Source of the DNA: Antedon mediterranea
Lineage: Eukaryota > Echinodermata > Crinoidea > Comatulida > Antedonidae
Length of the DNA stretch: 64,000 nt
Reading direction: 5' to 3'
Assembly (NCBI RefSeq): GCF_964355755.1
Contig: NC_092676.1
Location: 21,992,288 to 22,056,287 of the forward strand
Position numbers and translations under genes: made by a program. Position 1 is the stretch's first letter, and each line of letters begins with the position of its first letter. Below the pieces are notes generated by a model. It was not told where the DNA came from. It worked only from the letters and a program-made list of their open reading frames with translations, and ran no database searches. Below, one piece after another: positions 31,096-55,705 of the stretch.

Positions 31096-31138
31096 AGATC
31101 ATAATATGTCACACGGTTTCTTAAATCTTGATTTCCAT

Positions 31139-32070: not shown

Positions 32071-35000
32071 ATGACACGCCGGTTTATTTTAGTTGGTGAG
32101 TTATTTATTTTATTTTAGCACTAATAGTCGAGTAAATCCGTTGCTATGTTTGTAATGGATTTATATAAAAATAACTTTATTATCTGATGACACAATGTAG
32201 TTGGTTTTCATAAGCGAATTCATTTAATTCAATAGAATTGATGTTGTTTTAGGCAAAGAGGTTTTGCATTTGTAATGGTATAACATTATTATTGTAATGG
32301 AACATGTGTGTTTGCAGGCTATACTGACGCGCACCGGTATTATTTTGTAGAGTCTGTGTATTGCATATACATCCAGATTTCAGCTAAGAATTCATTTTTT
32401 ACAAATAGATTGACTTTACAATTGTCATGTTGTTTTACATATAGTTTAAGTTACAGGAACAGGACAGCTGACCGATTTATTTCTTAGACAGTTCGACCCA
32501 CCTTCTCACCATTTGAAATACAAACCCAGCGTACACATTGTGGAGAGGGGGAATTCGTTTTCGATCAAAACAATCACTCAAACAAGTTTATAGATCTAAC
32601 TCAGAAAACTCGTTTAGGCCGGATCTAAATCAGGCCCCTATATATATATTATTTTTGAAATCTATCGAAAAGAGGATTCACTTTACACAACCATACACAG
32701 CAGAGTTTCCAAAACAGCTGTTTTATATGATACGACCTAGGTCTACTTGCCGAATTGTAGAAAAATGCCTGTATTTTAAGCATGATAAATGTATAATATT
32801 GGAATGTTTTTTAAAATCACAATTGGCTATTTTGTGAAAATTATCATACCGTATAAATAACACTCAGAATAACTGACTGTAACACTCAAAATGTGATCAT
32901 ATCTCATTAAACTCTAATTTGCATATTCATAAACATTAAAATCTTAGAAATGAGTCCATATTATATTCCGACGCACTAAGTGTGCACGTCGTCTGCAAGT
33001 AGACCTATTATACTAATCGCATCGCGCTTTGCTGCGCCAGAAGTGGCGAAAAGTATTATAACATTTCCTATACGATCGTAATTTTATGAGTCTTAAAAAT
33101 ATAGATAAATGTATGGGCCATCTACAGAAAGAAATTAAGTTGTTTCTATAATATTTTTGTTGTCAATTTATCTTATGTCATTTAAGCTTGTTTCAAATCT
33201 ATACGGATGCAAACGCACGGACGTATTAGCGCAACGCAAGCAAGTAGAAAAATTACTAAACCGAAATGCAAATCCGATAGACTTTCAACTCCGATTGAGA
33301 AAGGCCAGGTTGGTTCCGATACAACCCCGTCTAATATGGATCGGTTCTTAGTGTAAGTCTTTTTCGGTATTTTTGCTTTTTCTTTACGTAAAACTGACGA
33401 GGTCTTTGTACTGTACAACATTTCGAGAAAAAAAAAATTAAAGTAAGGATTTTACGCCTTAAAATGATTCATCTGCAGTATAAGGTTGAAATTGAAATCT
33501 GATGAAAATTTTCCGAAACCAAAAAAAAGATTAGTTTTGATTAATAATCAACCAATAAACTAATAAAAAAGAAACCGAAAAAGCGTTATAATAACACATA
33601 TTCGTTTACTAAAACATCTAAAGTTTCACCTAACAATTTATTATATTACTTTTTCCCGTACTTGTGTGTGTTATTAAAGCATGTACAAATTATAAGTTAT
33701 AGTCTGATCCGAACAAAATTATTAGTAATATTGCTATAATAATTTTAGCTCAATGAAGGAATAGTGTTCTTAAAGCTTTAACACTTTTGTTGGGGGTTAT
33801 TTTACTTTACTGTTTTGATTTACTTTTCACTTGTTTTATCTGTATGTTAGGGTCTATCTCGATTGAGATCAGACCACTCTAGTAATACCCATGTTCTAAT
33901 TTCCCCAGTAATTTGACTTAGGATTTATTTATCTACAATAAGTAGGCTACATGAATATATTTATTGACCTAACATTCTGAAATTAACGATAGTTGTATTT
34001 ACCTCCATGAATTGAACAGTCGAATAACACAAATAAAACAATATTTAGTAATTTAGTAATATTTAACTGCACCCGTCGCGACCTTTAAAAATGTCTCTCA
34101 AGAGAATTACCATGGAAACGATTATCGTTTAATTAAGTTTACGATTAAAGTGCGTGCGTGGGTTCGGTATTAAGTTTCTGAAAGAAAAGAACAAAATATT
34201 AGTCAATTTGTTCTTGAAATTGAATTGTGGTATAGAGATGTCTAATAACGATATCGGATGGGCCATTAAATATTCCTAACAATAGACCACGGATAAACTA
34301 ATGAAAATCGTAATTTTCAAATGTTATGCATTATTGTAGTCCATTAGATTTATTTACACGAATCGCGTATGGGCCTTGTTTAGTTTAAAGTGAATTTTAT
34401 CTGCATAATATGGTCTACTGCTATAGCAATTGATTGTTCAACGAGTAATGGCTATAGTTTTGTCAGCAACACTAGGAGATACCAGTAATATACGCATGCG
34501 TGTAAAATGATTGTCAGACGTGTACGTGTGACGGAATGAGTGCGCGTGCGGTGCGAAAAAATAGGATGGTTTATATTGACGTTTTCGATTGAGAATTTTC
34601 AATTTCGTGGGGGAAAATCAATTTCAACTTCACAAGCAACAGTTCGGATGGCGTCGTGATTGGTCAATTTACTTGCAGTGCGCTTACGTCATTGCGTCGC
34701 GTCTAAGCCAATGACAAGCGAAGTTATAAACAGTTAGCAATCACAATTGCGAATAAGCCATCGCTTGTGATTGGTCAATTCACTTGCATTGCGTTACGTC
34801 CTTGTGTTGGGTCGCTAGTGGGAACCACGCTTTAGTGAGCGTTAACATTATTATTAATATAGCTTAAATTAGAACATTAAGCAACGTTTAACAAGTCAAC
34901 TTAAATAAGATAATGATGACAAACATGGTAATGTTGTTAATTAATTTATCATAAACATCGTGTGTCACTATTTTTTAGACGAGCCTGACTAACGTTGAGT

Positions 35001-38000
35001 CACTAATTCTTAGATTAATTATTGTTTTTGCCATGTACCCTACTTTTAATTTAACGCACTATGATCACGTGATACTATATTGATTACATTCTAACATTAC
35101 AAGCTCGTTGAACCACGTAAAGTATATCTTCATTTGTAAAAGAACAAGCAACCTGTTGATTACGTCACGTTGTTGTTTATTTTCAAGAAACAGGACGTAG
35201 AAACGCTACGTAAGCGAGACGACAAATTGTGATTGGTAAAATTATCAATACGCTAAGTGGTTTCGAAGAATTACTCACACGTTCTCAATTTAAGAGAATA
35301 AATAGGAATAATTTTTTCCAAAAAAACGCCGCTCATCTGACGATAACAACCGTCTACATACATATCGATAAATTAATACTCAATCAATCACCCAATCAAT
35401 CAATACATGCATCTCAATATTTATCAGCAAATGTTTTCATAGACTCTCTTTTCCCATACGTGCTTTGGGGTGTGCGCATATTTCCAAATACCCACTAACT
35501 GTTTCCTAATGATTACGTTCTCTTGAATATAACTGCCTAAAGGAGCTGCACGAAAATGTATAAAACGTGTAAAATTATGAAAATTGGAGGGAATTCAGAA
35601 AAGAGCAATCAGTTTTTTTTATAGAAAATATGCACTTCATATAGATTGGTCTTATACTGACGCTTATATCACAAACATTAGGACTCTCAAATCCAGACGT
35701 AAATCCCTCCACCAATCCCAAATACATTGTCACATGATGATTATTATACTATCAGTCTCGACCACCTGATCCGGATTCCCAATTTTTAACTAACATTCTT
35801 CCGAATAATGAAAATAAACGTCACTAAGGATAAAACATAGAACTTAATAAAAGTGTTTATAATTAGAATACCTTTTACTTATATGACACCTTTGTTGAAT
35901 GATAGCGCGGAAACATAAAGTAGGCCTATAGCAACTATACACTATTCGAATGATTCTTATGTCATAAGTTCACGTTAATAATGTATAAACTTCATTTTTT
36001 TTTATTAGGAACATTTTTGTCTGACATCATTAGTTCATTCTTGTTTATAAAGTGAATAGTTGACATATGTACACGTGGACAGAACAGGCATATTGCAGAA
36101 AAATGATACTGAAACATTGACATATACTATATACATGGTTGTTACGTCATAAAGCCATAAGTTTAGTGGTAGGGCATTGATCGATTGTAGCCATATCACT
36201 CTTAGTAAGATATTTTCCAATTCTAAGTGTTTCACATTCAAGTCAATAATTCATACATTTACATAGTTAGATAGAGAATGTTCAAACCTTAAAGATGTAT
36301 TGTCACGCAAAAACATGAAAAATAAAGTGAATAAAATCAGAATTTGAATATATTATTTTGTAGTTTTAATAAAGTTAATCACTTCCGTAGGAAAATACCG
36401 GAACAATTAATGTTTTAACTTATAAAATGACACAATAAATGATTAAATTCAACCAAAAACCCATTGTCTGGGAGGCAATTTGACAATTTTTTTGCTTTAA
36501 ATTACAGTTTTTTAGGTAAATACATTTTGTTTTCGATCAAATTTTGGTCAAAGTGGATAACTATGAGGTAACATTAAAATGGCATATTCAACAAAAAAAT
36601 AACAAAGATAATTTTTTCAGTGGGACAATACACCTTTAAGTGTAAGTCTTCACTTAGCATGTAATTGGTGGATGCAGTGACATTACTATAATAAACAATA
36701 AGTAAATACACTTACAGTATTGGAAATCTAAATTTTGTTTTTGCATTGACTTATCAATCGAAAAAAGATTATGTTTCAATCTGAATAGTTTTCACAGATA
36801 AAATTAAATTTCAATGCTACAAATTTAGAACAAAATAAAGTCATATCAGATTCACATCTCTAATTCATTATTGATGAATTCTTACAAAATTAATGAACTA
36901 CTCACGGAATTGGTGACTGTCAAGAAATTGTTAAATTTTCGCGAAATTGTTGAATCTTCACAATATTAGTGAATTATTATGAAATTGGCAAGTTTTCACG
37001 AGAGTGATGAATTGTCTCGAAATTGTTGAATTCTTAAGAACTTGATAAATCCTCACGCAATTTGGGAAATTCTCCAAAAATTGGTGAATTTACATTAGGC
37101 CTAAATTGGGGAATTATCTGTAAAAGCTTGGTTCCCACTAGAACGTAACGCAAGGACGTAAACGCAACGCAAGCGTTTTAACCAATGACAAGCGAAGTTA
37201 TAGACAGTTAGCAATCACAAGCGAACAAGCCATCGCTTGTGATTGGTCAATTCACTTGCGTTGCGTTACGTCCATGTGTTGCGTCGCTAGTGGGAACCAC
37301 GCTTAAGAGTAAAAGCACCTCAAGTCGACGCAAACAATTAAAAACATCATGTGAACCACAATAGCACGTCAGTAATCCGCAATTTTGTTTCTAACTTAGC
37401 TTTATTTTATTCAGTAAAAACGTATGCATATATATTATATAATTCGTCTGAACATTTTGTTTTCTTCATGAACCTTTCTGACTTTTAATCTAGGCCTACT
37501 TCAAGTATCTTTATCAAAACATATCGTCAATAAATTATTCTATTCCCCCAGCTTTTTTCAGTTTCATTGGTTAATATTTATGTATTACCTACATTTGTTA
37601 TAGTGTTTTCATGAACCTTTGACGTTCGGTTTATTTAAGGTATGTTAAATCATGTGACTCAAAAACGTCATTCTAGTCATGGCTATATTTTTTTTGTATG
37701 TATATTTTTGTTTGTCATCAGATTTTAGAACACGCCATTCTAACCTATAAAACAAGGCGACCACTCCAGTATCGTATCGTTTTTTGTATTGTAGTAAATG
37801 GCGGTAATGGCCTAATGAACGCCGTAACAGCATTTGTCATTAGTGTTTACATATACTGTAACGACTTGATAGCTCTTTAACAGACCATTTCATACGAGAG
37901 GTTAAAAGAGCGCTATGTATTATGAAAGAAAATTGCTTGCATTGTGCATTACAAATACCTGTTCTCAAAAGGCAATCTAATTTTGATTAATTTAATTTTG

Positions 38001-40754
38001 AGCTTTCAGCTTTCACGACCTTCTACAGTGCAGAATCTACAAGTCCACAGTAAAAAAATACATGGTACCTTGATTTAGATTTGTATTAATTTGGTGGTGA
38101 ATGAAATTGATGAATTTATGGTTGATATTTTATTTATTTTATGTCTAGGCACACTGTACTATCAGATAGGTGTTATCCTTATATTTTGTGAACCAGGAAT
38201 AATGACGATAACAAATGGAATAAAAAAAGGATAACGATTATAAAAAAATAAATAAACTCTCACCTAATTTTACTAAAGAATAATTCTCAAAATCTGTATT
38301 TGAAATCAGATGAATTTATTTCAACATGATCTTACAGATTTAATTATTCCGTTTTAATAAAAACATTTCTAATGATTTAAAAAATAATTTACAACAATTA
38401 ATGTAAATATAACTTCGTCTTTAGGCATAATACTATACATGCATAATACTGCGGGGGTGTCCAACCAAGGACTATACGTTTATAAGGATTAATAGCCTAC
38501 CAATTGACCTAACATTTTACTAAATTCAATCGCGTTTACTGAAAATAAAAAATTCCACCAACGCAAAGAAATTAATAATAATAATTTTTAAAAGGAGATT
38601 TTATTAATCGTAATTGTAGTTGAAATCAATGTGGATGTCTTGCATATTAAAGCGCTTATTAAAATCTAAGCTACACAAGTTGACGTGCGCGTACAAAGTA
38701 TGTAAACTACATAAGTTAGGGTGCGCGTAGAAAATATGTAAACTTCTACACAATACAAGTTGAAGTGCGCGTACAAAATAAGTAAACTACACAAGTTAGG
38801 GTGCGCGTAGAAAATATGTAAACTACACAATACAAGTTGAAGTGCGCGTACAAAATATGTAAACTACACAAGTTAGGGTGCGCGTAGAAAATATGTAAAT
38901 TACACAAGTTAGGGTGCGCGTACAAAATATGTAAACTACACAAGTTAGGGTGCGCGTAGAAAATATGTAAACTACACAATAATACAAGTTGAAGTGCGCG
39001 TACAAAATATGTAAACTACACAAATTAGGGTGCGCGTAGAAAATATGTAAACTACACAAGTTGGGGTGCGCGTACAAAATATGTAAACTACACAATACAA
39101 GTTGAAGTGCGCGTACAAAATATGTTAACTACACACGAGTTGACACGCGCATACACAATATGTTTGCCGGCTACACAAGTTGACGCGCGCGTACAAAATT
39201 CACAGTTTTCATATGGATCGGTATAGATTATATCACACATTTTGAATATCGTTAGTGATTTATTTAATACGTATACACACCTACGGGAATTCATAAAATG
39301 TGTTTAAAATTTTATGATAGTTGCTCTGTAAATGTCAACTATTTAATTTGTTTAAATTATGCCGAAGGGTCTATAAACAACCCGTGTGGAAAATGTATTC
39401 TGCGCTAAAGGGGACCTACAACTCACAAACATTGAAAGTTCCGCACCTCTCTGCTCCAAATTTAAACAGACAGCAGACACTAAGTGATTAAACACTCATT
39501 TTAAATTAGGGAAGCCCTGAGGTAAATGTACAACCTACACAAAAAAAAGTACCATTGTTTCCTATGTGACCCTTGAAGAGATAAAGGAACACTGCAATGG
39601 TCACGTGATATAAGGCGAAGGTCCATTTATGAAGTGCGCGTACAAAATATGTAAACTACACAAGTTGGGGTGCGCATAGAAAATATGTAAACTATAAAAG
39701 TTAGGGTGCGCGTAGAAAATATGTAAACTACACAAGTTGGGGTGCGCGTACAAAATATGTAAACTATACAAGTTGAAGTGCGCGTACAAAATATGTTAAC
39801 TACACGCGAGTTGAAAATAACATACACACGAGTTGAAAATAACATCCTATCCTAATTTTATCATTGAAAAAAATTTTAAAAAAGATTTATTTTTTTTTAT
39901 TTTAATTTATTTATGTTCAACTTTAGTTCACTTTTGGTATTCCCTGTCTTGTGTTTCTCTGTTTTTGTTGTTGAATATAATTTTTTTTTTTATTACGGAT
40001 ATGGGTATTGTTATTCATACAGGTAGTAAAGCTTAGTTGAATAGATTTATCCTTCTAAACGTTTTTTATTGATTCATTTTTGTTATATTTCACTGATTTT
40101 ATACATTTACACGTCAACGACTTTCTATATACAATTGTAAGATTTTCAAAACATACATGTGATTAGTGCATTGGCGCCACGATTCTCAAAAGTATACCAA
40201 CAAAAAGTCATCAGTCCAAATTTGCAATCGTTTATTATTACCGGGTTTATTACAATAATCATTATGTATTATTATCTAATCAAAAATCAATAGGCCTGAA
40301 TTCATTTTGTATTGTTCACATTCAGCGCTAACTGCAAGTGGCAAAACAGCGGTAACACGCATGCGTGTAGAGATGTCCAGCTTCAACGTAGGATCGCAAG
40401 TTGGTAGGACATCCGGGTTGGTCCGCTCCTTAATTTTGGGGGGAAAATAGTGCAAAAGAAGGATCAACATTAAGTTAAGCAAACGTTGTCTTTTAATTGA
40501 TCCAGTCGATTTGTATAGTGTACAAACTTAATCCATGTGCTAGAGATGATGTAGTCGACAGACAAGAAACAACAGATTATTTACATAATACGTAGAGCCG
40601 GGTGCTGACGTCAGTATTTATGTTGTATTTTAGTTAATGAATTCGTTTAATTAGAACACATTATTCTCTCATGGTTTGAAATTTGGACACTTCTCTTTTC
40701 AAGACCTACATAAAAAAGAACTTTCAAGAGCTTACATAAAAAAGAAGTAAGAAT

Positions 40755-40789
<35 letters not shown>

Positions 40790-41390
40790 GCTGTTGCGTA
40801 ATTAAGTCTACACCCATCCAACATAAAGAAAGTAAATAATTTAAAAACTTTCATTAAAAACGTTATTCAAAGGAGTAATACGTTTGCAAATAGTTTAAGA
40901 ACCTGTATCCGTCATATAATGTATTGTTTGATGTATTATGTTAAATTGGATGCACCACTTCTGTGTGTGCCACCGATGCAAAGGTGTCATTTCCTAATAA
41001 ATTATTTATTTATTTATTTTAACGATGGCGTTAAAAAAATGAAATCTTTTAATCTCCGCTCCGAGACTGTCTTAAAATTACTCTCTTTACGTGGGTCCAT
41101 GCCTGGGGCTGCAACTTGCATGCAGAAAAAAACGCAAAACGTGTTGGTTCTTTAATATTATACGTTATCCCACGCAACCCAATCTTTAATGTGCACTGGG
41201 ATTGATTTTCTAACCTGTAATGTGTACTTTTTGCATCAAAAAATAAATTAAACGAAAGCCCTATTAGACGTCCTCAGCAGAAGAATTGCCACAGACACGT
41301 TATAGGCTTATAACCACACATTCGATTTTGGAGCTAAAGACTACGTTCAAAAGAATGTGATTATTGAAGCTTAAACATTTTTTATTCTGT

Positions 41391-41423
<33 letters not shown>

Positions 41424-44400
41424 GGGCCTATTAATTAATTTTTTAAAGATGTATCGTGCTAGATCTGCCATGCAACCACTTTAGTTTATCACCAGCAGAC
41501 TATCTTTTTTTTAAATACACAGTTTACAAAACTAAGAAAAAATAATGAATGTGCTGAGCTTTGGGAGTGTTTAAATGATGTGAGTACTTATACACCTTAG
41601 GCCATCTTGGCCAGACTAAAATATGCTTTGAAAATGATAAATTGATTCTATGTTTGAGAAACATACCACAATAATATCTACATTTTGTTTAGGCCTATTG
41701 TGTGATTCAATTTTGAGTTCCACTACGAGCATACCAGCTACTTAACAATTGTTTGGTAAAATAACTAAACAGGCGCTCAATAAAAATATATTTCTAGGGA
41801 CGTTTCAATTTTTAATGCAAATTTGATCGATATAATATTACTGTAATCACCAAACATTTAAACATAACAATGCCGAAGAAAAGTATCTATAATCTCAAAT
41901 ATTTGTCTTGATTATAATATTCGATTTTTATATAAATTTTAAATTTTCATTTTGTTCGTAGACTCGCGTTGTTATCTCATTAATACGGTACTGAAAAACT
42001 CTGAAAACAGCCTTAGAATTACAGTACTGTTCTACCAAAATTATAAAATGAACAATTAATCAAATGTTTCGTTTACACGCTTTATCTTTCTCAGTAATTG
42101 TAACATGCGGAAAAAATGCCTATTATTAAAAAATAAACACCACTATTTTACATATTTTCGTTTACACGCTCGACGAGCTTTAAGTAAATAATCCTCAAAT
42201 TATTGTGTTAAATCTCCATGGTTAAATCTAGTTCAGTCTCGCTTTCACAGTCAATGACCTAAATCATGCAACGTCCATAAATATTAATATATAGTTATAA
42301 TTTGTTTGACTATACGACAAAATCAAGCTGGAGTCGAGATTGCCTCCAGCTGGCGTCTAGCCTCGACCAAAGACAACCGGGATTTTTTTTCTGGGCCTAT
42401 TTACTTTACGAAATGAGGCAAACCTATCTTCGTTATTAACGTTTATTGAACAATTATAACTCACGCGATGGTTGGTAAGTAGACATTATGGTATATTTTT
42501 AGTAACCGCTATTTCTCGTCATTTGTCAGTAGTCAGCTAATTAACAGGGGCCATGACCGTCTCACTAATTATGCATTATCTCCTAATTACTTTTGTTCCC
42601 GGGTGATAGTGTATTTTCAGAGACAAACGATCGGCTGAGTAATTTAGTCCGGCTCGCTTCCTGATAAAATTGATCAGGTAAAAATTGTATTTTCCAGAAT
42701 GATCGTAAAATAAAACAAAAGTTATACTTGGTATGACCATTAATTAGTGTTCATGTTCCCAACCAGTTATCCATTCGTAGAAAGTACCGATGAAGAAGCC
42801 AATCTGTGGCGACTTTAATGGACTCGAAACATGCTTACTTCGGTCTTAAGGAATTTTGAATAATTATTTTGTTAGCAATTTTACGATATACATTTATTAA
42901 ACATTTTGATGTTACGTTTGTATAACTTTGTGTATTATAATATTATTATTCACTCGATTCTGCAGATGTCACTAGCTAGAGTCTAACTGACGATCACAAG
43001 TCGTTGTGATAAGATCATCAGTATTGGATAATTTATCTTAGTCCGTTTCCGTTTAAAAAATGTATTGACAAAATGTTTCCAATCTTGGAAGATTGACAAT
43101 AATTATAGCAAGGATATGATACTGCTAAAAAGATTTTAAAAATCGAGTAAAATTGTTGCACGTCAACATAGGTCTACAAATAAACGAATATTACACGATG
43201 ATCACAAGCGAGGTAAATTCTGATCAGAACTGTATTTACACCAAATAAATAATACATACAGTACTTCCCTCTAGATAGAGTTAAGATATCATGAAAACGA
43301 GATTTTTTTATGACAGAAATATATACATTCAATGTATGCATTGTGTAAAAATGCGATATTATTATATTATGAATAACTGCCAATTATGACATGGTATTTG
43401 AGGGTTTTCGATTGATTAATGTATTCTCCATCATCAAATAAAATGTTGCCATATAAGGAAGTATATAATGATATAACAAAAACAAAATTTAAACGTTTAA
43501 AGTTGTTTCTTCTTTCATTCATACATTATAACACTGACGATGACGTCATAGAAAGTGTTTCCATGAATGTTTATTCTTTCTAACAAATTTTAACGTGTTA
43601 ATAAAAAATGTTAGTGTTGCTATCCAGTAATGGCAAAGTACTTGTACTACACTAATACATTGACTTCCTGTGCGTATTTTTAATGACGTGTGATTTGCTG
43701 AAATCTCAAAAGGCTTTTGTGTCTGCGAACTCTGCCATTAAAACATCCACCCGCAATACAAATTGAGTTTCTGCAAACATATTAAATCTGTCAATACGAT
43801 GACCTGTCCCTATGTACTTAAAATAGGCTTTTATACATACTTTTTATGGTTAATAAACATGTTTTATTATCGTGCTTTTGAATTTGTATGACTTGATCTC
43901 ATTTTATTTCTATGGCACGTTTCCTTTGTCAATGTATAATTTAATATCAATCGGTCTGTTTATAATGCATTTAATAAAGTTCCGAAAAAAGAAATCCATG
44001 AAATATGATAATTTTACCTTTAAAAAGATAAAATAAATAATCAAATGTAACCAAAACTTCGCTATTTGGTAATTTATTGGACTTTTTTCCCCTTAAATTA
44101 TTGTGATCCAAAATGTTCAGTCAAAGTGAATAACATTAAAATGGCATACTGTATTCGATACATTTTTTTACAAGGAAGAAACAGTATAAATTTACCCAAA
44201 ACCAGTTGTCTGGCAGAAAGTGTGCTTCCGAATTTAATTTTTCTTTACTTTTAATTACATGTTTCTAATAATTTGTATATATTTTTTGGATCAAGTATAA
44301 ACAGTTATTTTTAAACATTAGTATTTTCAGAGGAACAACCTTTACTGATCAGTTGTATTTCGTTTTTGTCTTACAGCTTCGGGTGTGCTGTTGATGTTAG

Positions 44401-47400
44401 TTACACTGGTGAAGTCTGAAGATTGTCTACAGATGCGGGACGAATGTCTTGGTGATTTGGAGTGTGGCTTTGCTCTTGAAGAGACCCCTAAACCAGACGT
44501 GTGTGGTGACGCCGGTAAGTTAAAGTAACTCGAGTTAGTAGTGCATTAGCAGATTTAACGACGTTCAATAATTTAATATTATGTTTAAATTGATAGTTAT
44601 CCAATTCACCTTGAAAACCACAATTATGACCATGAGAAACAAAGACGATTTTCTTTCTTTTTTTAATAATAAAGGGGAAAAAAAATACCTCTACTCATTA
44701 CAGTTTGATCAGCTGCCTTTGTTTTGACCCTTTCTGTTTTCGTCGTATGTTCTGTTAATGTGTTTAAAAACATTAGTAACTTTACTTATGGCCTTCCCTA
44801 CACAAGTTTCTCTGGTTTTACCATTTGGTTTTACTTGTTGGGACTTTGCCACTTTCATAACTTAAAGAAATCTATTAGCATTTTTTTTATAGACACTTCT
44901 TTCTTTTAAATGTTTTAATCGCATAATTTATTTGTAAATTGAAAGAAATGTTTCTTATCGTTATTCTGATTTTTGAAAGAAATAAATGTTCACTTGATTG
45001 ATTGATTGATTGATTGCATTCTTACTTCTCTGCATGATGATTGATTCCTGCACTAGAGGCACATCATAATGATGTAACGCAACGTAAGTGAGTTGACCAA
45101 TCACTGCGATGGATTATTTGAACTGTCGCTTGCCATTGGTCAACACGCTTGCGTTGCGTTTATGTCCTTGCGTTGCGTCCTAGTGGGAACCAAGCTTAAC
45201 TAATGTCAAATGGTTTACGATGATGACCCTCACTCGACTGGGCTGACAATGTCCCTGTTGTAATCTTTATTTAGGCTCACCATGCCAAATACCAGAATTA
45301 CAAAAAATGTTTTGTGTTCAAATGTTGGAGATGTTGCGAAGAAACTATCACCTTAACGAATGCACATGTGATCCAGACAGCACTGAATGCCGTCAATTCC
45401 AGAATTTAATAACAAGACATCCATGTGAGGTTGGAGGTGAGTTTATCAGTGCCTCTAAAACCTGGAGAATTCCAGCGAAAGGCAAACGTTGACTAGTGCG
45501 TATTATTATTTTCGTCTACTTTTTGTGACGTGAACAATTGTGCAACCAATCAAATATCTGGATTGTACGATTGGCGCGAATGTATTCGCCTAGTGCAATA
45601 TAATTCTCAACTAATAATACCACGTTTGGACCAATTTGTATATTACGATTTCATACAAGTTCCCACGTTTTAATTCTTTTATTTTTAGGAATAAATATTG
45701 GTAATCATGTGTCTTTATCAAGTTTTTAATGAAAATTCAAAATGTCATATCGATACTGTATATATCTTATTTGAAGTATATCATAGGAGGTAAATCTAGG
45801 GTGCACGTGCTTCACATGTGAACCCTTGTTGCAAAGACCTTAACGTAACTCGTAACTAGCATTCCATGACACAGGCACCACATACACGTGGGATGCTATA
45901 TTGTTGAAATTGCTTATGTTACTGGACAAATAATGTATATCTCTGGAGATAATCACTGAAAATCGAGTGCAATGTATTCAGTATTATTTTAGTCAATACC
46001 GTACAATTCCTATTCAGTGTTCTGATAAAAGCAATTTAGTGCATCATAATCGTTTCTACCAGATATAATTAATGAATAACACGTTTCTTATAAATCCATA
46101 GATGGAGCATTTATAAATCCTACGCCTGATGATACACTTATAACTGATGATTACTCAAGTTACTCGTGTAAGTTTTTAGCTGAGCATACAGTTTTTGTCC
46201 TCTGACGAGATATAGTGAGACAGTATTTTGGGTTAGGTTAAGTAATATTTAGATATTAGGTGCTATTGCATGAGCATGTTGCCTTCTATAGACACTATAC
46301 TGCAGTATATGATATATCATTCTTCAAATGTTTGTAAAATTATCGATCCTTAATATGGAGCTTTCAATTCATAGACGAAAAACGATATTAACAGACTGTG
46401 ACGGGCGTGTACGTGCCATCCGTATTGTTGCTAAATGTATTTAGGTTTTGAGAGACGAACGACGGCTAACCTAGCATAGAGTATGTTCAGTAACCAGACG
46501 GAGTCTGAAATTAGTGTCGTAAAGGAAATGATTAACCTGAAAAACTTAACCTAAAAAGATGGCTTCTTACGATGGTGTGCTTAAATTGTGTACAAATACA
46601 ATTAATTAATTGATAGTACAGTAAATGTTTACCTGTATCTTATTGTTTGAAGGTTTGCATGGCGAAATCAAATGTTGATATATATAGTTTGCGGTATACC
46701 ACGTGTATTAGTTCTGAAAAGAACTGTTGAGTTTCTCGACGTTTCGATCAATATTCTCTGATCGTCCTCAGGAGTGAGAAATCCTCCAATCAAAGGACAA
46801 GGTGCTATATAATAAATAATGAAGGCAATTTGAGCCCTCGAATAAAATAGTACATACAGGAGTACTGGAACAATTTCATAATCCGTGTGTTCCAATTAAA
46901 TTTAGTTTATCAAACTGCAACTGCATCGTTACTAGTATTTTAAACGTGATTCCGTCTAAAAATAATTTCTTTAATTATTTCAGCTTCTTTATCAGAAGAC
47001 GAACCCGGAAAGCAAGAAAATACAGATGTTGATATGGATCCAATATCGAAAGTAATAAGTAAGTTAAAATGTACACTCTAGCTTGGCAATTTTAATTGCC
47101 ATGCCCTTTCAAAAGAGAATGAACTGAAACTGAACCTTATAAACGATTTAAATAGAATTTAACCCTTGTCGTATTGTACTGTAATTGTATTTATATTTAC
47201 ACTTTTCTCCGATTACTAACATCCATATTGATGAATACCATTGTTCTAATTAACCCAGTTATCTCTTAAAGACGGTATGACCTGCATCTTTGCATTGTAA
47301 ACTATAGACAGAGAGACTTAATCGCGTGTACGACATTTCTTATGTCGTTATAAATTGATTAAGATAAGTAATGCATTTTGAAAGCTTTTTTTGTTGTGAA

Positions 47401-50400
47401 TAACCGTATATTTTGTCTAATTTTGTTGCTGTCTCTAGTATTAGTAACTAAACCCAATGACGTGAAATCTTCAAGTGACTCATTAGCATCAATATCATCG
47501 GAGGTATCATACGATTCAGATTTTAGCTGTAAGTAGCATCTTTCATTCAACTACCTTAATTCTGCGGTTGAGTCAGCAGTGCGCAAACGATGTGAAAGGG
47601 TATAAAAGCGGATATTTATTAGCCACCGCAAGCGTAACTGAAATGTTGGAAATTCGGATTAGCCAGCAGTGAAGATCAGCTGTTCCGCTTTCTCAGTTAA
47701 AATCAGTTTTGTATTAAAAAACTAAAGTACCAGTGGCCCCGCCACCAATCAAACATACAATTAAGTAAATACTATTTCACTTAAGTCAATATACATATTT
47801 AAGAATTTCACTTCAGTTTGAACGTTCTTTTTCTAGGCCTCGGAGACTCCGGCAATTCAATTTATAACTTTTTTATTTATTTATTTTTTAATTATAACGA
47901 TGAGGAAATCTGCCACCTAGCCAATATTCGAACTCGACGAAACCTCCTGCTTGATATGTACTAGACTACTTTCATAGGCGAGTGGTAACGGTAAGCGGAA
48001 AACCGCGTAACTTTCCCCACGTAGAATCTGTGTCTATCCTGAGCGGGAACCGCGTAGCTTGTCCCACGTAGAATCTGTGTCTATCATGAGCGGGAACCGC
48101 GTAGCTTGTCCCACGTAGAATCTGTGTCTATCATGAGCGGGAACCGCGTAGCTTGTCCCACGTAGAATCTGTGTCTATCATGAGCGGGAACCGCGTAGCT
48201 TGTCCCACGTAGAATCTGTGTCTATCCTGAGCGGGAACCGCGTAGCTTGTCCCACGTAGAATCTGTGTCTATCCTGAGCAGGAACCGCGTAGCTTGTTCC
48301 ACGTAGAATCTGTGTCTATCATGAGCGGGAACCGCGTAGCTTGTCCCACGTAAAATCTGTATCTATCCTGAGCGGGAACCGCCCGTCCGTTCCGCGTTTT
48401 GTGTAAACGGTTATAAGAAATAAGATAAATTCTATATTTTTATTACCGTTACCGCTCGTCTGTGTAAATTGGCCTGGAGCTTTCATAGCAATGTTCAAAT
48501 AAAATTAACATGTCATTGTCTTCTTTGTAACATTTAAGCTGGTTCAAGTTTTGTAAGTTCCGCACTGAACATGGACGATTGTTGGATAGAAATTAACCGA
48601 TGTCGAAGAGACAGGTCATGTGATAACGCCCTCACCACATTTGAAATGGCTTGTTCATGTGACGTCAAACAGTATTTCGCATGCGTATCAGATGCACCAA
48701 AATGTCAAGAGGTAATCGTAACCATTACATATCCTAGAGAATGTAGATACATTATCAACTTACTTTATTTCTTTTTTGGGTAAACACATATGTACCTCAA
48801 ACCGTACTTTACCGGAGTATGTTCGACAAGTAGATCCTAATCATAATGTACACTAATTTTAAATTAAAATTAAATAAAACCGCTACATACGTTTACACAG
48901 TACTGTATTTGTCTAACTTACAATCAATGACGTTAAATGATGCGCAACTGTTGCGTGTTGTTTTAGTTGCATACGAAGCTTTCATTTTACCACGCGCACC
49001 TCCAATACGAAAAGTATAAAAATCACTGTACGCATGCTTAGAAAAATATGAGCATGTGTATGACTTATTTACTTGAGAGCTACGCAGAGTAGAAATTATA
49101 CTGAACCAATTCTGTGGGCTACAATTAACTTGTATTTTTAATATTCCTGACAGGCAAGAGATGGATTAGATGCGTTTAATCTGGTGAATTGCGGCTGCCC
49201 GGAGACTATGAAACACAAGAAACGCTGTCAGTTTGTCTACGATAAGTTGTTTAACAATCCCTGTATTGATGGTAAATAAGCAATCACATTATTTGTACTA
49301 TTATAATAAAAGTATGACACCCTTTGGAAACCAGCAATGGGTCCCTAAAAACACAAAAGAACGCGACGCAAGAAAATCGAGTTGACCAATGAAAAGCACC
49401 GTTCGAATAATCCACCCCTCGTTGATTGGTCAAATTTAATTGCATTGCGCTTACGTCATATAGTAGTATCCCAAACGAGAGGGTTCTACTGTATGTCTAT
49501 TTATCTGTTCTTTTAAATTCTGAAGTTTTTTAATATTTGATTTTTTTGTTATCACTAGTGAGCTGCCGGGAAAAGTACAATGTACTTAACGAATATCATT
49601 AATGTATAGATTACACAAATATAACTAATGTAAACAACTATCTTATATGAATAAATCACAATTCTGTCTCGCCTAAAATTAGACTGTCACATAGATGTTA
49701 TACCCCTGTGAATTTCGCCCCTGGACCAAAATCCTAGATTAAATCTAAATCGCAAACGCCCACTCGTAATGAAAACTGTTACCATAAATTATTTAGAGGA
49801 TTACCATGGAACAGATTTTATTGTTTATAACAAATGTTGGAGGTGTTTAATGGCGCTTTTTTTCCAAACGGCATATTCGTAATGATTTTCATAATCCTTT
49901 CAAACGATAAACGTCTACCCACACAATTAATATAGATATAAGTATATAGATCCTTCTCGAAAGAAGTAATGAAATCACAATAAATCTTGAATATCTATGA
50001 ATATAAACTTTTTTAGATAAATCAATATACAGGGATTCGTTCTCTTGTTGTGTTATTCAGTGATTATCCCTCTTATAAAGAGTTAAACATAATTATCTAC
50101 GCAAACAAAGTTATAGCGTAATAAGAACGTATGTCAACTCCCTTTCATTAGATAGTTTGAGCAAATTAACGTATACTTATCCGTGTCTGAACCCTTATAG
50201 AGATACGGATAAATTTAATTCCATATTTGCGACCATTTACCGGATTCCCAGTGCTGTATCTGAGCATCAGACCGTTAGAGGGCAGATACTTCCTGTCCGA
50301 CCCGAAAGTTCATTGTTTGTCTACAAAACATTGGCCTAAGACGACCTAGGTAATGTTTACGAGTTTCGCTTTCTGCGGGTGAAACCAATTATTGCAGGCG

Positions 50401-53400
50401 ACGATTGTACACGGCATAGTCCATGGGAGGTATTTTGTTATCCGACAAACTTTATAATATAGACATTCTATTTTGTTTCTGCTGGCAACACTCTTGTAAT
50501 TTCTAGTTTAATAGATAGTCTTGTAAACAATTTTCAATTCTTTTACCACACTTTATAACTAGTGTAGCAATTTAATTTTCAACAAATAAATAAAGTTTTA
50601 GAAACGTATCGACAATTTGTATCTTGAGCGGTATCGATATCGTACTTTTACACACAGACCTGTGGATAATGGAGGTTGCTCAAACTACCAGTTAAAAAGT
50701 GGGGATCTAAGGCCGGACTTCAATAGACATGTTATAGGAATATGCACACTTTTTACCCCAAACCCCTTCATTAATGGTTACCACATCTTTTTATTGCAGG
50801 TTGTCAATCTAACAATGTGCAATCAGACACGGCACTTAATGGTATGTTATTGCTGTTCGTAATTTTGGAAAATAGTAGATATTTGTAATTTGGAAATACT
50901 TTAATTTACTAATACTTCGAGGTTTTTTAGGTAAATTTATATTGTGAATTGTGAATTCGGAAAAAACGTTGTTTCTTTGCCGACTTATAGCGCATAAAAT
51001 GGTGTTTTTAGCTTGCTTTTTGAGTGCGACTCCGGTTGCATCAATGTCTTTTTTTTTATTAAAAATCGTATTGGCCTGTATCACGTTATACATTACAGTG
51101 AAAAGAGTAATAAATGAAGATATGTAAATAAAATGGTTCAAACGGCCATGATCACATTAAAAATATAACTTGTAAGGCGAAGCCTTTAATGAGTTTAAAA
51201 CAGTTCAAATGTAAATGGATGTACGCGAAAATGCCTGCAAGTACTTTGACCAATCAATACATTCGGATGATCAGTCTGTAGGTTGTGATTGGTCAAGCTT
51301 CATATTCTTATTGTATTCCCAATTGAAGAAAAGAGCCGAATATTGATATGGATCGCCAGTGGTGTACACAAATGTAAAATATTTATTGTTGTTTTACCTC
51401 ATTCCAGCCAAGATGCTACCGTACCAAGACGCTATAAATAAATGTACAGAATCAGATGACGTTTGTCTTGATAGCTTAGTAGCGTTTTCTAGAGAATGTC
51501 ACAACTGTTCACAGGCTGAGTGTCAGCAAGCAACGGGCGATTTCATCAGGCATGTAGATCCAATAATATCACACGCCGTACTGTTCAGTGACTGCAAAAG
51601 GGCTAAGAATGGTGACGGGTGTGTGGATACCACTTCTGAACGCGAGTGCGGCACGATTGTGTCGCCAGTGCCTAACTGTTTGGAACTTCCTATTCGATGT
51701 GGAGAAATTCTTGGATGCCAGTAAGTATAAACATACCGCCATTGGCAGAATCTGATAATTTAGGGATTTGAATTTAGAGAAAAAACCAAAAACTTACTAT
51801 TTTATATGCTTCTCTTCTTCTTTCAGATCTTTTCATTCTCTTATTTCTCTTAGGAACAATTCCTTTTCTTTTGATAATTATTACTGTAGTCTTCCTCTTT
51901 CTGGCAAAAAATATAATAATAAAGCATGAGGTAACTATAAAAAATTAAAATTCAACTTTTGTAAATATCTTTTAGGGTACAATTTCAAAATTTCCAGAAC
52001 CACTGCGATCCAAACAGATGCAATCAGGATGTTTACAGTTTGTGCCGGACCGCATACGCTGCTCTCTTTGAAACCCCGATTGCTATCAAATGTACGTGCG
52101 ACCCAAACGCCGTGGACTTTTCAGAATGTCGAGTTTTTCAACGCCGTGTTTCAGAAAATAGTTGTGTTGGTAGGTGAAAAAAAAACAAAAATTAGGAAAA
52201 TATAAATGAACTTTTCCTAATCTTTACTCGTTATTTTGTGTATTGTATTACATTGTCTACTTTTTCTCTGAAGCTTGTTTCTCACTAGCTACGCAATATA
52301 ACGCAACCTACGCAACGTAAGAAAATACCCTTTCAACCATGGTGTTTGCCTCCGCCTGCGTGAAATCAAACCTACGATGTTTGCATCACTATTGCGTCGT
52401 CGGTTCCCACTTGTATTTATGCAATACAGCACTTTGCGTCGATACGTCGCTGCGTTGAGTTCTAGTGGGAACCAAGCTTTAAGAAACATACTGCCTATTT
52501 TACCTTATTTCAATCAACATCCCTTTTATACCACATTACAGAATCGGCATGGTTTTTGTGCTATATTTAACTTTACTACTTACTCCTCTCACGTGTGTAA
52601 TTTAATAAAAGCATGTCATTCATTCTCATCAGTGACTTCCGGCATTTTCTCAACATGTTTCCTTAATCACATCTAATGTTTATCTATTTTTGTAATTTCA
52701 GATAAATCAATTCTTTATTACCAGGATCCGACGTTGGAAGAACGTAGGGACTACGAAAGTACGTATTTACCCGTGTGAATATTGGAAAAACTATTTTTAA
52801 AATTTGATATTCCATTTTCCAGCAGTCAAATATTCGTAATTCAAAAAATAATATCATTTTTATCTATTTGATCATATCTTGTATTGAATCAGGAATGTGC
52901 TTGGTTATAATAATACTAATATAATATCATCCATATGAAAAGTAAATTAGTAAAAATGCGAAGTAAATTTGACAAAAAAAATAGTGTTCAATGAAATTTA
53001 GATTGCGTCCTCTATATTCGTTTCCGAACACGAAATAGATTTTACTTTTATTTCTAACGAAAACAATAACTAACGTATTTATACGTATTTTTGTTTTCGT
53101 TATCGTATTTGTAATGTTGCAAAACCTCTCGTTTTTGTTTTGGTCGTAGTATGTACGATAAGGCTTGGAAGTGAACCCAAGGCCCTACGTGTCAAGATTG
53201 GTACTTTTATTCGGGTAAGCTTTATTATCAATATGCTATACTTTAAAAATCTCTTTCTATGTCCAAACACATCTTTACTATACGATTAATGTAGTATATT
53301 ATGTGCAACCATTTACCATAAACTTCTTTGATAATGGTCACTACAGGTTCCAAATTCTGAGGGTGAATCTTCAATTTGCCAGTGTAGAGCTGACAGAAAA

Positions 53401-55705
53401 CTCGGCTACTGCCATGCTATCCCTGCTGGCCAGAATTTGTCTTGTAAAGAAACGCCAAGCACAGTTTACAATGGTTTGTATTGTCGCATAATTACTGTTA
53501 TTTTAAAGTAAAGAACCCTGTCTAAAGCGTGGTTCCGACTAGCGACGCAACGCAGCGAAGTTTTGACGCAAAGTGCTGTATTGCGTAATCACAAGTGGGA
53601 ATCGACGACGAAACAGTGCTGCAAACATCGCATGTTTGATTTCATGCAGGCGGGGGAAAACACAATTATCGGAAGGGCATTTGTTTACATTGGTTGTGTA
53701 GGTTGCGTTATGTTGCGTCGTTAAGCTTGGTTCCCACTAGAACGTAACGCAGATTAGATTCTTTATTTATTTATTTGTTGTTATTGTTTCTATGTTATAG
53801 AGAATGATTCAACACATAGAAATGGAATTTGTGCATGTATTTCTGGTGAATTTATATGCTCAAAACCTGAAAGTGAACTCAGCGACTATCAGTTAAACAG
53901 TAAGTAGTATAAAAAGAAACAAATGTTCCAAACACAGTCACAACAACAATCATTTCAAATGAAATGAAACCCATTTTTTCCATTGAAATAACAACAAAGT
54001 TGTATCATTCCTATATTAGTTATTTTCATTCAATACGCAAAAGTTTGATTGATATGAAACTAAATAAAAAAAAACTGAGCGAAATACTTGTAAAGTACAG
54101 GGCGACAGAGGGCATGGTCATTGAAAATAATGATAGCTCGAGATCTTATAACGTTTTGTGATGTCAGCATTTTATGCATTTTCCTGAAAATCAGTGGGAA
54201 TGTTCTTTTGCTATACAGGATAAAAGAGAAAAATCAAGACAATTTAGTAAATCAAAGTTACCAAAAAGATTTTACACTTTCAGATGGACAAACATACTTA
54301 TTCATCGGATATAGTAGCAGTGAATTACAGTATGTTAGTGAGTTTATCGGGGAGCAGGTACCAGATGCCGTGTTTCATAAACAGTTGCAACAACTATTGG
54401 ATAATGAGACCAAAGTCTCTTCTAAGGTATTTATGCAACTTACAAGTTCCGTATTTAAATTTGACCAGTGTCTACACACATTCCTCATCTCACATGAGAA
54501 CATATACCCTAACCTAACCCTTAAAGCGTGGTTTTCACTAGCGACGCAACGTAACGCAACGCTACGACGTATTGACGCAAAGTGTTATATTGTGGGAACC
54601 GAAGACTCAGTAGTGCTGCAAACATCGCAGGTTTGATTTCACGAAAGCGGGAGCAAACACAATTACTGGAAGGACATTTTCTTACGTTGCGTAGATTCCG
54701 TTACGTTGCGTCGCTAGTGCGAACCAAGCTTTACTGGCACCACATATTATACACAGGATATTCCGTATTATGTAATATGCCTATTATGGTAATTTCTTGG
54801 TTGGTTCTACTTACATTAAAGACACTGTAAATACATGTACCGTTTTATTTCAATTCAACGGGTAGATCCTACCCGTATAATAGATTCTATTTGTTGGAGA
54901 TAATGGTCGGGTGACCGTATTCACCAATCGCATTTACGATACTTTACTTAAGATGAAATGTAATAGGCCCATTTCCTCAATTTCACCAAAGAATATTTGA
55001 ATGATAGAGTACTCTTTAGCGTATGTATATGACTCAACATGTTTAACCACACATTCCGACCTTTGAATCAATTTCATTAGAATACATATTTAGTGTATCA
55101 ATTCATCATTAATAATATATATGATTTTATTTAGTGTACGTTGGTTCTAATTCCAATAACGACCAGAGGAAACCTACTGTTCAGGTCAGTAGAAGAGGAA
55201 AGTGACCCTAACCAGGTACGTCAGCTTTAAACGTGGTGAGGACGATGACGCAAAGATGATTTTAAATTAGATGATGATTTAGTAATAAGATAATTCCCCT
55301 GGTAGACCTAACTACTGTATAATGTTTGGTCTCAAGGACGTAAGGACACCTCAAGCAATGTGGCCAGTCATCGGCTAGTGATAAACAAAGCTCGTCCACA
55401 AAGTTGTGTTTTTTCAACAACATTTATGGAAATAACTTCTCATAAATATACTATATTCTTTTCAGACATCAGTTACCTGTATAGGGTCTATGATGCACTT
55501 GGCTAGTATGATAAACGGCAGGAATATGCCACTGGTCACCAGTCCAGTACTGTCTGTACTGAAAATAGCCAGCGTTGACTACCTTGACACCAACAGTAAC
55601 AATCCTCAACGACTAAGCCGATCGTCAGGTACTAATCAGCATCTACCTCACTGTCTTTCATGGTTGATAGTGTTAGCCTCGTTAGTATTTCTAGATTGCT
55701 TTTAA
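32071..55705 (+). CDS. GDNF family receptor alpha-like protein (four GDNFR/GAS1 domains, predicted GPI anchor)
   Basis: Eighteen coding exons, every junction GT-AG and phase-compatible: 32071-32095, 44377-44514, 45275-45436, 46102-46167, 46984-47058, 47439-47528, 48539-48711, 49154-49271, 50800-50841, 51408-51720, 51976-52169, 52702-52758, 53150-53214, 53347-53473, 53801-53899, 54284-54426, 55135-55215, 55466-55705 (TAA); 735 aa. A signal peptide (1-22, ending LVTLVKS) is split between exons 1 and 2. Cys-rich domains: D1 about 23-105 (NECTCDPDSTECRQF), D2 about 195-282 (CSCDVKQYFAC, NCGCPE), D3 about 297-380, D4 about 383-465 (CTCDPN, NRCNQDVYSLCRTAYAALF, like the CDC and AYAGL region of GFRalpha). 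An acidic Ser/Asp linker lies at 108-190. A C-terminal module (about 485-700) precedes a hydrophobic tail (CLSWLIVLASLVFLDCF) after small residues, suggesting a GPI signal. N-glycosylation sequons include NCS, NLS, NDS, NET and NQT. GFRalpha proteins bind GDNF-family ligands with RET or NCAM; this role is inferred. Exon 1 was assigned by signal-peptide fit and phase across a 12.3-kb intron. Confidence 0.85.
34634..34836. mobile_element. MITE family M2 (short subfamily), intron 1 of the GDNF-receptor-like gene
   Basis: gtgattggtcaatttacttg, agccaatgacaagcgaagtt, gccatcgcttgtgattggtc and tcgctagtgggaaccacgct. The left terminal repeat is eroded or replaced by a second partial copy. Confidence 0.7.
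35575..35720 (+). mobile_element. LINE ORF2 C-terminal remnant
   Basis: Reads EGIQKRAISFFYRKYALHID and then IRTLKSRRKSLH, the motif (LE-x-IQKRA-x-R-x-IY ... LKSRR) found near the C-terminus of CR1/RTE/Jockey-like LINE polymerases. Short and without flanking domains. Confidence 0.55.
36289..36641. mobile_element. MITE family M4, near-complete copy
   Basis: Terminal inverted repeat: left ccttaaagatgtattgtc, right gggacaatacacctttaag. The core has gttttaataaagttaatcac, aaacccattgtctgggaggc and tggtcaaagtggataactat. Fragments of the same family lie at 1,366, 11,290, 13,195 and 43,990. Confidence 0.8.
36860..37110. repeat. Degenerate 24-bp tandem repeat
   Basis: About ten imperfect units like gaattctcacgaaattggt (cacggaattggtgactgtca, cgcgaaattgttgaatcttc, gagagtgatgaattgtctcg). 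It ends where an M2 MITE begins at 37,126. Confidence 0.6.
37126..37304. mobile_element. MITE family M2 (short subfamily), best copy
   Basis: Left gcttggttcccactagaacg, right cgctagtgggaaccacgctt; between them aacgcaaggacgtaaacgca and its inverted counterpart. Nearly fully palindromic, 179 bp. Confidence 0.9.
38660..39215. repeat. 36-bp satellite, block 1 (about 14 units)
   Basis: Unit aaaatatgtaaactacacaa followed by gttggggtgcgcgtac. Two alternating variants: gttagggtgcgcgtag and (with a 6-9 bp insertion acaatacaa) gttgaagtgcgcgtac. Minus-strand frames across it are open by chance. Confidence 0.9.
39628..39835. repeat. 36-bp satellite, block 2 (about five units)
   Basis: Same unit as block 1, separated from it by about 410 bp of unrelated sequence. 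Ends with a duplicated cacgagttgaaaataacat. Confidence 0.9.
40759..40788. repeat. (TA)n microsatellite
   Basis: Fifteen perfect TA units. Confidence 0.9.
41391..41423. repeat. (ATT)n microsatellite
   Basis: TTATTATTATTAG then TATTATTATTATTATTATTA, with one interruption. Confidence 0.85.
42785..42900. mobile_element. Possible Penelope-like element terminal fragment
   Basis: gatgaagaagccaatctgtg and ggactcgaaacatgcttact resemble the 'tgatgaagcc ... cgaaacgt' word pair seen at ends of Penelope-like elements. Similar words (gatcgtcctcagg, gacgtttcgatca) are at 46,735-46,775 and (tccgaaacgtcgatc) at 59,800. No coding sequence. Confidence 0.3.
43990..44230. mobile_element. M4 fragment near the exon 2 acceptor
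   Basis: atttggtaatttattggact, ccccttaaattattgtgatc and tcagtcaaagtgaataacat followed by taaaatggcatact match the M4 core. It ends about 150 bp before exon 2 of the GDNF-receptor-like gene. Confidence 0.6.
44700..45017 (+). mobile_element. LINE 3' end with (GATT)n tail, intron 2
   Basis: T-rich 3' UTR-like DNA followed by tgaaagaaataaatgttcac and five TTGA/GATT units at 44,994-45,017, a typical L2/CR1-like 3' terminus. An M2 MITE follows 30 bp later. Confidence 0.5.
45048..45199. mobile_element. MITE family M2, short subfamily, intron 2
   Basis: gcactagaggcacatcataa, agttgaccaatcactgcgat, gccattggtcaacacgcttg and gtcctagtgggaaccaagct. The left terminal repeat is degraded. Confidence 0.8.
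46660..46800. mobile_element. Possible Penelope-like element fragment, intron 4
   Basis: gagtttctcgacgtttcgat followed by caatattctctgatcgtcct and caggagtgagaaat: the 'gacgtttcga ... ctgatcgtcctcagg' word order characteristic of such termini. No coding part. Confidence 0.35.
47895..47985 (-). mobile_element. Possible tRNA-SINE remnant, intron 6
   Basis: On the minus strand cgagttcgaatattggctag resembles a B box with flanking sequence. No A box was identified, so this is weak. Confidence 0.25.
47990..48385. repeat. 47-bp minisatellite, about eight copies, intron 6
   Basis: Unit gagcgggaaccgcgtagctt followed by gtcccacgtagaatctgtgt and ctatcct/ctatcat. Copies are almost identical apart from the first (accgcgtaactttcccc) and the last (aaaatctgtatc). 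It lies about 150 bp before exon 7. Confidence 0.95.
49349..49500. mobile_element. M2-like fragment with M3 end, intron 8
   Basis: gagttgaccaatgaaaagca, cgttgattggtcaaatttaa and tgcattgcgcttacgtcata are M2 core words; the following atcccaaacgagagggttct and actgta resembles an M3 end (caaatgaggggttctact). Confidence 0.5.
51237..51302. mobile_element. M2 core fragment, intron 9
   Basis: actttgaccaatcaatacat, then aggttgtgattggtcaagct. Terminal repeats are lost. Confidence 0.4.
52273..52481 (-). mobile_element. MITE family M2, long subfamily, intron 11
   Basis: agcttgtttctcactagcta, gcctccgcctgcgtgaaatc, gtcgtcggttcccacttgta and gttctagtgggaaccaagct. Same subfamily as at 53,525, 54,521 and 56,343, in the orientation opposite to the first two of those. 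Confidence 0.85.
53070..53131. mobile_element. Right end of an M5 MITE, intron 12
   Basis: ttgttttcgttatcgtattt, then gttgcaaaacctctcg, matches the right end of M5 at 26,640-26,684. It ends about 20 bp before exon 13, so it may overlap the polypyrimidine tract. Confidence 0.6.
53525..53752 (+). mobile_element. MITE family M2, long subfamily, intron 14
   Basis: aagcgtggttccgactagcg, agttttgacgcaaagtgctg, gctgcaaacatcgcatgttt and gcttggttcccactagaacg. The right end carries an additional inward-pointing M2 terminus, as if two elements met. Confidence 0.8.
54521..54733 (+). mobile_element. MITE family M2, long subfamily, intron 16
   Basis: aaagcgtggttttcactagc, cgacgtattgacgcaaagtg, gctgcaaacatcgcaggttt and gtcgctagtgcgaaccaagc. 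An open frame running out of exon 16 continues about 35 codons into it and stops at 54,634-54,636. Confidence 0.85.

Follow-up and report, generated by a model that had tools for sequence, protein, structure and literature searches.

A four-domain GFRL gene with a putative RECK-related stalk in the crinoid Antedon mediterranea

Introduction

GAS1 is a glycosylphosphatidylinositol (GPI)-anchored protein encoded by an intronless gene, and RECK is a Wnt7 co-receptor and protease regulator. Together with the GFRalpha-type receptors, they are the described systems closest to the gene reported here, which lies at positions 32071-55705 (+) of a 64,000-nucleotide stretch of the genome of the crinoid Antedon mediterranea (contig NC_092676.1, positions 21,992,288 to 22,056,287 of the forward strand), referred to below as the window. 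The gene is a likely member of the GFRL group. Four-domain GFRL genes have been described in Drosophila and C. elegans, and GFR-like proteins in the sea urchin; Drosophila Gfrl has four GFRalpha-like domains (D0-D3), is GPI-anchored, interacts with FasII/NCAM and is largely not co-expressed with Ret (PMC3527400). GAS1 has two GFR domains (PMC4349606).

The domains of the window product are numbered D1-D4 from the N-terminus, and vertebrate numbering is indicated where it is used. The product resembles Drosophila Gfrl in its four domains, signal peptide, GPI-type end, many exons and long locus, and in both a long region separates the last domain from the anchor; it is shorter, with 735 residues against a 3129 bp reading frame for fly transcript A (PMC3527400). 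Compared with vertebrate GFRalpha1-4 and GFRAL, window domains D2-D4 align to D1-D3 in order, and D2 and D3 (vertebrate numbering) adjoin. Vertebrate GFRalpha has three GFR domains in place of four, and relative to GFRalpha1-4 and GFRAL the window gene has gained one domain at the N-terminal end and a putative RECK-like stalk. GDNF/GAS1 domains are common to GAS1 and the window product; the two differ in that the window gene has 18 exons and four domains, and this genome carries its GAS1-like frame at another locus. The proposed likeness to RECK consists in the order of an EGF1-like module, an FnI-like module and a last domain, in intron positions and phases, and in the GPI-type end.

Proposed structure and role of the product

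We consider it likely that the locus is a single-copy, intron-rich GFRL gene encoding a secreted, GPI-anchored surface co-receptor with a RECK-related stalk. The product would consist, in order, of a signal peptide, D0, a linker, D1, a second linker, D2-D3 (vertebrate numbering throughout), a RECK-like stalk and a GPI tail. The stalk would comprise an EGF1-like module, an FnI-like module and a C-terminal domain, related to the membrane-proximal part of RECK. D1-D3 (vertebrate numbering) would form the recognition unit at the cell surface, which the RECK-type stalk would keep away from the membrane. The model has no cytoplasmic part, and the protein would therefore act through a transmembrane partner; candidates are adhesion molecules of the NCAM/FasII type, with which fly Gfrl is reported to interact, and/or this genome's RET orthologue. 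By homology, we expect the protein to serve at the cell surface as a co-receptor or adhesion partner that recognises another protein, probably without the involvement of a GDNF-family ligand. We infer the GPI anchoring, the partners and the ligand.

Four-domain GFRL genes were already known; the RECK-like stalk is the new part. That the membrane-proximal half (EGF1, FnI, a last domain, GPI signal; the same exons) has a common origin in GFRL and RECK appears moderately probable to us; the description of this last domain as SEA-like is a guess by eye. If this is true, the GDNF/RET co-receptor family and RECK would represent two offshoots of a single ancient line of GPI-anchored receptors, the N-terminal recognition domains would have been swapped or have diverged between the GFRL and RECK lines, and the stalk would have disappeared from vertebrate GFRalpha. 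A true RECK link would also explain where invertebrate GFRL proteins acquired their long C-terminal region and would join RECK, via the stalk, to a second receptor family. No statement of a link between RECK and GDNF receptors, GAS1 or GFRAL was found in our searches of the open-licence literature, as judged from the listed papers, and the terms 'gfr' and 'gdnf' are absent from the main text of a RECK review (PMC12842694).

GDNF/GAS1 domains and their vertebrate counterparts

The whole product was matched by the GDNF/GAS1 profile PF02351 with 37.3 bits (E 4.7e-9, cut-off 22), in four stretches when counted at the loose limit of E 10. With the domains scanned singly, D2 (30.9 bits) and D4 (26.8 bits) lay above the cut-off, D1 (19.0 bits) lay below it and D3 was not matched. 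The original prediction of a GFRalpha-like gene is borne out by the profile check on the 735-residue product. Its count of four GDNFR/GAS1-like domains agrees with the four stretches and with the scores of D2 and D4, and finds no counterpart in the scan of D3 alone; a lack of domain hits for D1-D4, which it had named as a possible refutation, was thus observed for D3 alone and not for D1, D2 or D4. Its statement that vertebrate GFRalpha has three such domains and Drosophila Gfrl more accords with the four-domain architecture described for the fly protein (PMC3527400).

D2-D4 were compared with the sequences of solved structures, E-values being quoted for whole chains unless stated; the domain numbering of the GFRalpha and GFRAL structure chains, taken from chain position, is assumed. 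D2 aligned to the first domain of the GFRalpha1 chain (E 0.01), the remaining two stretches scoring below zero. D4 aligned to GFRalpha1 (1q8d, E 0.028) and to the second domain of the GFRalpha3 chain 2gh0 (whole-chain E 0.061). Taken jointly, D3 and D4 matched both domains of two chains, in one alignment each: GFRAL, with E 0.0014 for the whole chain and 0.14 for the single stretch, and GFRalpha3, with 0.008 and 0.14, respectively. D2-D4 thus appear to correspond, weakly but in order, to D1-D3 of vertebrate GFRalpha, the E-values being modest and the order consistent. D1 would therefore be the extra 'D0' known in Drosophila Gfrl. Its one receptor match, to GFRAL 24-106 (E 0.18), ranked under matches to neuraminidase, and no vertebrate domain was assigned to it because the match overlaps the part of the chain matched by D3. 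The influenza neuraminidase matches of D1 in the structure database covered stretches of 34-43 residues only and were taken as chance.

Several points weigh against this assignment. D3, unmatched by PF02351 when scanned singly, is also short of two of the ten cysteines: D1-D4 have 10, 11, 8 and 10, respectively, about ten being the family standard. The single-stretch E-values are weak (0.14 for D3-D4 and 1.4 for D4 on 1q8d). The alignments to GFRAL and GFRalpha3 nevertheless extend over D3. An AlphaFold model of D3 (single-exon) alone had a predicted local distance difference test score (pLDDT) of 47.7.

C-terminal module: sequence comparison with RECK

Exons 13-15, taken as a 100-residue segment, were matched by three of 24,736 Pfam models: EGF1_RECK (E 8.3e-5), DUF7921 (8.1e-4) and FnI_RECK (0.088). 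These include the two consecutive modules of RECK, in RECK order. When the segment was shuffled with its cysteines fixed, none of nine shuffles matched a RECK family and one matched another family. A local alignment of the module with the genome's own RECK (BLOSUM45, 14/2) scored 107 versus 42.8 +/- 7.1 for 3000 full shuffles; this score was reached by none of these and by ten of 5000 Cys-fixed shuffles. For EGF1-FnI alone with the same parameters, again 0/3000 full shuffles reached the score. Four control Cys-rich segments from the same genome scored 40-56 and the RECK segment 81.

Part of the evidence favours another explanation, namely that this is an ordinary GFRL gene with no RECK relation in its C-terminal region, the match being due to the similar cysteine spacing of common EGF-like and FnI/VWC-like modules. 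The RECK Pfam matches lie under the curated cut-offs (27 and 30 bits) and depend on query length: with a 215-residue query E was 2.4e-4 for EGF1_RECK and 1.1 for FnI_RECK, and with the whole product it was 1.1e-3 for EGF1_RECK, FnI_RECK being unlisted. With BLOSUM62 (11/1), the whole-module score was reached by 12/3000 full shuffles and that of EGF1-FnI by 20/3000. Among Cys-fixed shuffles, 92/5000 reached the EGF1-FnI score, and the score of a control segment, the Frizzled-like stretch of RECK (56), was reached by a similar share of its own Cys-fixed shuffles (22/1000). The places listed by a genome-wide EGF1_RECK search were RECK itself and five weaker ones. The window gene, in which an intron splits the EGF1-like module, was not among them; the genome searched comprises 354 Mb in 18 contigs, including the window.

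The last domain is the weak part of the RECK link. Its collinear exon-by-exon comparison with the genome's own RECK gave p 0.017, carried by exons 17-18, and p 0.026 once a human RECK sequence not taken from a database was added. Two of five permuted exon orders outscored the true order (three of five with this human sequence), because exon 16 fits the last exon of RECK better (score 59) than its expected partner (15). Both MAFFT and the best local alignment of the domain likewise chose this off-register match, a point in favour of an unrelated C-terminus; it may reflect an internal pseudo-repeat or chance.

We nevertheless regard an unrelated C-terminal region as unlikely. It has to contend with the inclusion of RECK's two consecutive modules among the three models matched, with the lower scores of the four control segments and with the agreement in intron positions and phases. 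The introns were compared on a residue alignment of the window module and the genome's own RECK (BLOSUM45, 12/1). RECK introns fall at columns 48, 85, 130 and 161 and window introns at columns 50, 83, 132 and 159, in both cases with phases 1, 1, 0 and 0, so that all four RECK introns are matched within two columns and in the same phase; an extra window intron at column 5 has no RECK counterpart. The RECK junction at column 85 is our own exon join, in which the last stretch of the FnI exon was omitted along with the Kazal region. For the remaining three junctions, random placement gave such matches in 44/200,000 trials with the same phases and in 10/200,000 with random phases. In the window gene and RECK alike, the intron before the EGF1 module is in phase 1 and is directly followed by a cysteine. 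For EGF1-FnI and for the exon-intron structure, a relation to RECK is fairly well supported; for the last domain the support is weak.

RECK itself lies elsewhere in this genome, on contig C1 (C1:32568500-32588300), with CC4, EGF1, FnI, Kazal-type and C-terminal exons. Its EGF1 and FnI modules lie above the Pfam cut-off, and no Pfam match was obtained for its last domain. The window product differs from RECK in that the N-terminal CC, Kazal and Frizzled-like families are not among its matches; no CC4_RECK, Kazal or Frizzled-like family is listed for it in Pfam. As no relation is seen between the N-terminal domains of the two, the window gene is not a RECK. Homology between the N-terminal GFR and RECK CC domains was considered and rejected, as no Pfam cross-hits were listed and hhalign gave a probability of 0.6% (seven GFR versus two CC domains); the RECK review describes the CC domains as RECK-only (PMC12842694). 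The second-best place for EGF1_RECK in the genome showed no RECK-like frame by eye. For DUF7921 (PF25537), the top place in the genome was exon 15, by 0.1 bit over a place on contig C4 and under the cut-off, and this family may describe a GFRL module.

Copy number, RET and ligand

A genome search with the product gave 18 matches, of which 16 were its own exons; the other two had E above 7. By this one search, which scored only the best candidates, the window gene is single copy. One of the two weak whole-protein matches, on contig C3, was rejected since, judged by eye, its frame resembles that of a reverse transcriptase; the other is on contig C2. Besides the window gene, the PF02351 search of the genome gave one place, on contig C11, with 21.6 bits, rising to 22.1 bits, above the cut-off, when taken with its neighbours. 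The frame at this place (C11:15561500-15564200, -) is intronless and includes a leader; about three and a half GDNF-type domains can be counted in it by eye, more than the two of vertebrate GAS1. Its 429-residue product scored 16.2 bits in hmmscan, in two stretches, and was taken as GAS1-like.

A kinase at C6:82001-94000 scored 311.5 bits to RET versus 232.3 to the best FGFR. RET_CRD was matched upstream of it with 57.4 bits (cut-off 26), and the locus contains a likely transmembrane stretch (by eye). These matches identify it as the predicted RET orthologue of the genome. RET homologs seem absent from echinoderms according to PMC3527400; either the locus is mild evidence against an echinoderm source or that statement is out of date. 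A genome search for the taxon marker COX1 gave no match at E up to 1e-5, and the sequence tests lent no support to the ambulacrarian origin put forward in the original prediction. Pfam searches of the genome for the RET_CLD domains returned seven places for CLD1, none above the cut-off, and none for CLD3 or CLD4. As these searches missed a real RET, the absence of a domain match in this genome means little, also for a GDNF ligand. No GDNF-type ligand was detected: a human GDNF sequence not taken from a database, used as query, gave a single weak place (E 0.219), and absence is not proven thereby. That place, on contig C6 around 11915551, holds the frame of a ligand of the TGF-beta superfamily, whose nearest relative with a solved structure is inhibin beta A.

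The presence of a RET orthologue with both kinase and cysteine-rich domain, and the collinearity of D1-D3 (vertebrate numbering) with GFRalpha, would suit a RET co-receptor working exactly like vertebrate GFRalpha with a GDNF-type ligand. This we hold to be quite improbable. The one weak place found with the GDNF query is closest to inhibin beta A, and fly Gfrl brought about no phosphorylation of fly or mammalian RET (PMC3527400). In addition, an 'ERRR' run follows the second domain in GFRalpha3 and in the GFRalpha chain of 7ab8, whereas window D3 has 'DTTSEREC' instead; in the same structure-database alignments GFRAL also lacks the run. The missing 'ERRR' fits a partner other than GDNF. For the proposed GFRL surface co-receptor, the genome provides one more invertebrate-type case that combines GFRL with RET and a GAS1-like frame, no GDNF-type ligand having been detected, and this combination bears on the roles of GFRalpha-type receptors before GDNF.

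Gene model

The gene was rebuilt from splice sites and frame as 18 predicted exons in a single frame encoding 735 residues, the sole stop being the final codon (55703-55705); this reconstruction reproduced the exon number, span, length and GT-AG borders of the original prediction. All 17 introns are GT-AG, and 12 are in phase 1. The open frame is no independent evidence because the exon boundaries were picked with the frame in view; for the model as predicted, independent evidence comes from the domain matches. Signal peptide and GPI-type tail were judged by hydropathy only, and anchoring is predicted. Over 15 residues the hydropathy maxima of the product are the leader (2.81) and the C-terminal tail (2.22), values elsewhere being at most 1.73, so that the two elements proposed earlier are indeed its most hydrophobic stretches. 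The earlier reading had also noted a C-terminal module, which is present and Cys-rich, without recognizing its RECK-like character; taken as a whole, its interpretation is partly supported.

The weakest point of the model is exon 1, of 25 nt and 12.3 kb upstream of the remaining exons. A scan of 30000-44376 for an ATG followed by 1-25 more codons and a phase-1 GT[AG]AG donor gave four candidates with three donor sites. The candidate at 32071 was judged best of the four, its use being unproven; the core of the signal peptide is encoded by exon 2, not exon 1. It also counts against the model that exons 1 and 9 have the support of splice sites and frame alone. It is very improbable that the model fuses two neighbouring genes in error, with exons 1-11 coding for a four-domain receptor of the GFR type and exons 12-18 forming a separate gene for the RECK-like tail: the GFRalpha match does stop at exon 11, but frame and phases are continuous across exons 11-12-13, by hydropathy the first half has no anchor and the second half no leader, and fly Gfrl also has a long region from the last GFR domain to the GPI site (PMC3527400). 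The exons of the single gene are listed in Table 1.

Table 1. Predicted exons of the GFRL gene in window coordinates, with the assignment of each
Feature	Position	Strand	Assignment and evidence
Exon 1	32071..32095	+	Start codon, n-region of signal peptide (MTRRFILV); unproven, judged best of 4 candidates
Exon 2	44377..44514	+	Signal-peptide hydrophobic core, then D1, first half; D1 below the Pfam GDNF cut-off with 19.0 bits
Exon 3	45275..45436	+	Second half of D1 (published 'D0' position)
Exon 4	46102..46167	+	Linker, acidic/serine-rich
Exon 5	46984..47058	+	Linker
Exon 6	47439..47528	+	Linker
Exon 7	48539..48711	+	First half of D2
Exon 8	49154..49271	+	Second half of D2 (putative vertebrate GFRalpha D1); Pfam 30.9 bits; GFRA1 first domain E 0.01
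Exon 9	50800..50841	+	Short linker; phase-consistent, too short for a test alone
Exon 10, first part	51408..51670	+	D3 (putative vertebrate GFRalpha D2), 8 Cys; alone without Pfam match
Exon 10, end	51671..51720	+	Start of D4, adjoining D3 directly as in GFRalpha D2-D3
Exon 11	51976..52169	+	Remainder of D4 (putative vertebrate GFRalpha D3); Pfam 26.8 bits; 1q8d (GFRA1) E 0.028
Exon 12	52702..52758	+	Linker to stalk
Exon 13	53150..53214	+	Start of RECK EGF1-like module; phase 1 intron then Cys, as RECK EGF1
Exon 14	53347..53473	+	Remainder of RECK EGF1-like module; PF25027 23.2 bits, E 8.3e-5, cut-off 27
Exon 15	53801..53899	+	RECK FnI-like module; below cut-off for PF25028 (E 0.088) and DUF7921 (E 8.1e-4); phase-1 intron no more than 2 columns from that of RECK
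Exon 16	54284..54426	+	First part of C-terminal domain; begins in phase 1 and ends in phase 0, like RECK C1; residue similarity to C1 not above shuffles
Exon 17	55135..55215	+	Second part of C-terminal domain; phase 0 at both ends, like RECK C2
Exon 18	55466..55705	+	Third part of C-terminal domain, GPI-type hydrophobic tail and stop; phase 0, like RECK C3

Repeats and neighbouring exons

The introns contain several repeats. A tandem array in intron 6 lies just before exon 7 (48001-48382; 47-bp unit, 8.1 copies, 96% matches), and intron 1 holds two arrays with a 36-bp unit, at 38667-39135 (12.3 copies) and 39634-39805 (4.8 copies). A dispersed repeat, by eye resembling a miniature inverted-repeat transposable element, has ends like GCTTGGTTCCCACTAG and runs of ACGCAACGCA; examples are found at 45061-45200, 52290-52480, 53520-53750 and 54525-54740. 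Elsewhere in the window, at 13283-17763 (-), there are WD40-type exons that look DCAF7/WDR68-like by eye, with weak Pfam WD40 matches in two of the three pieces scanned.

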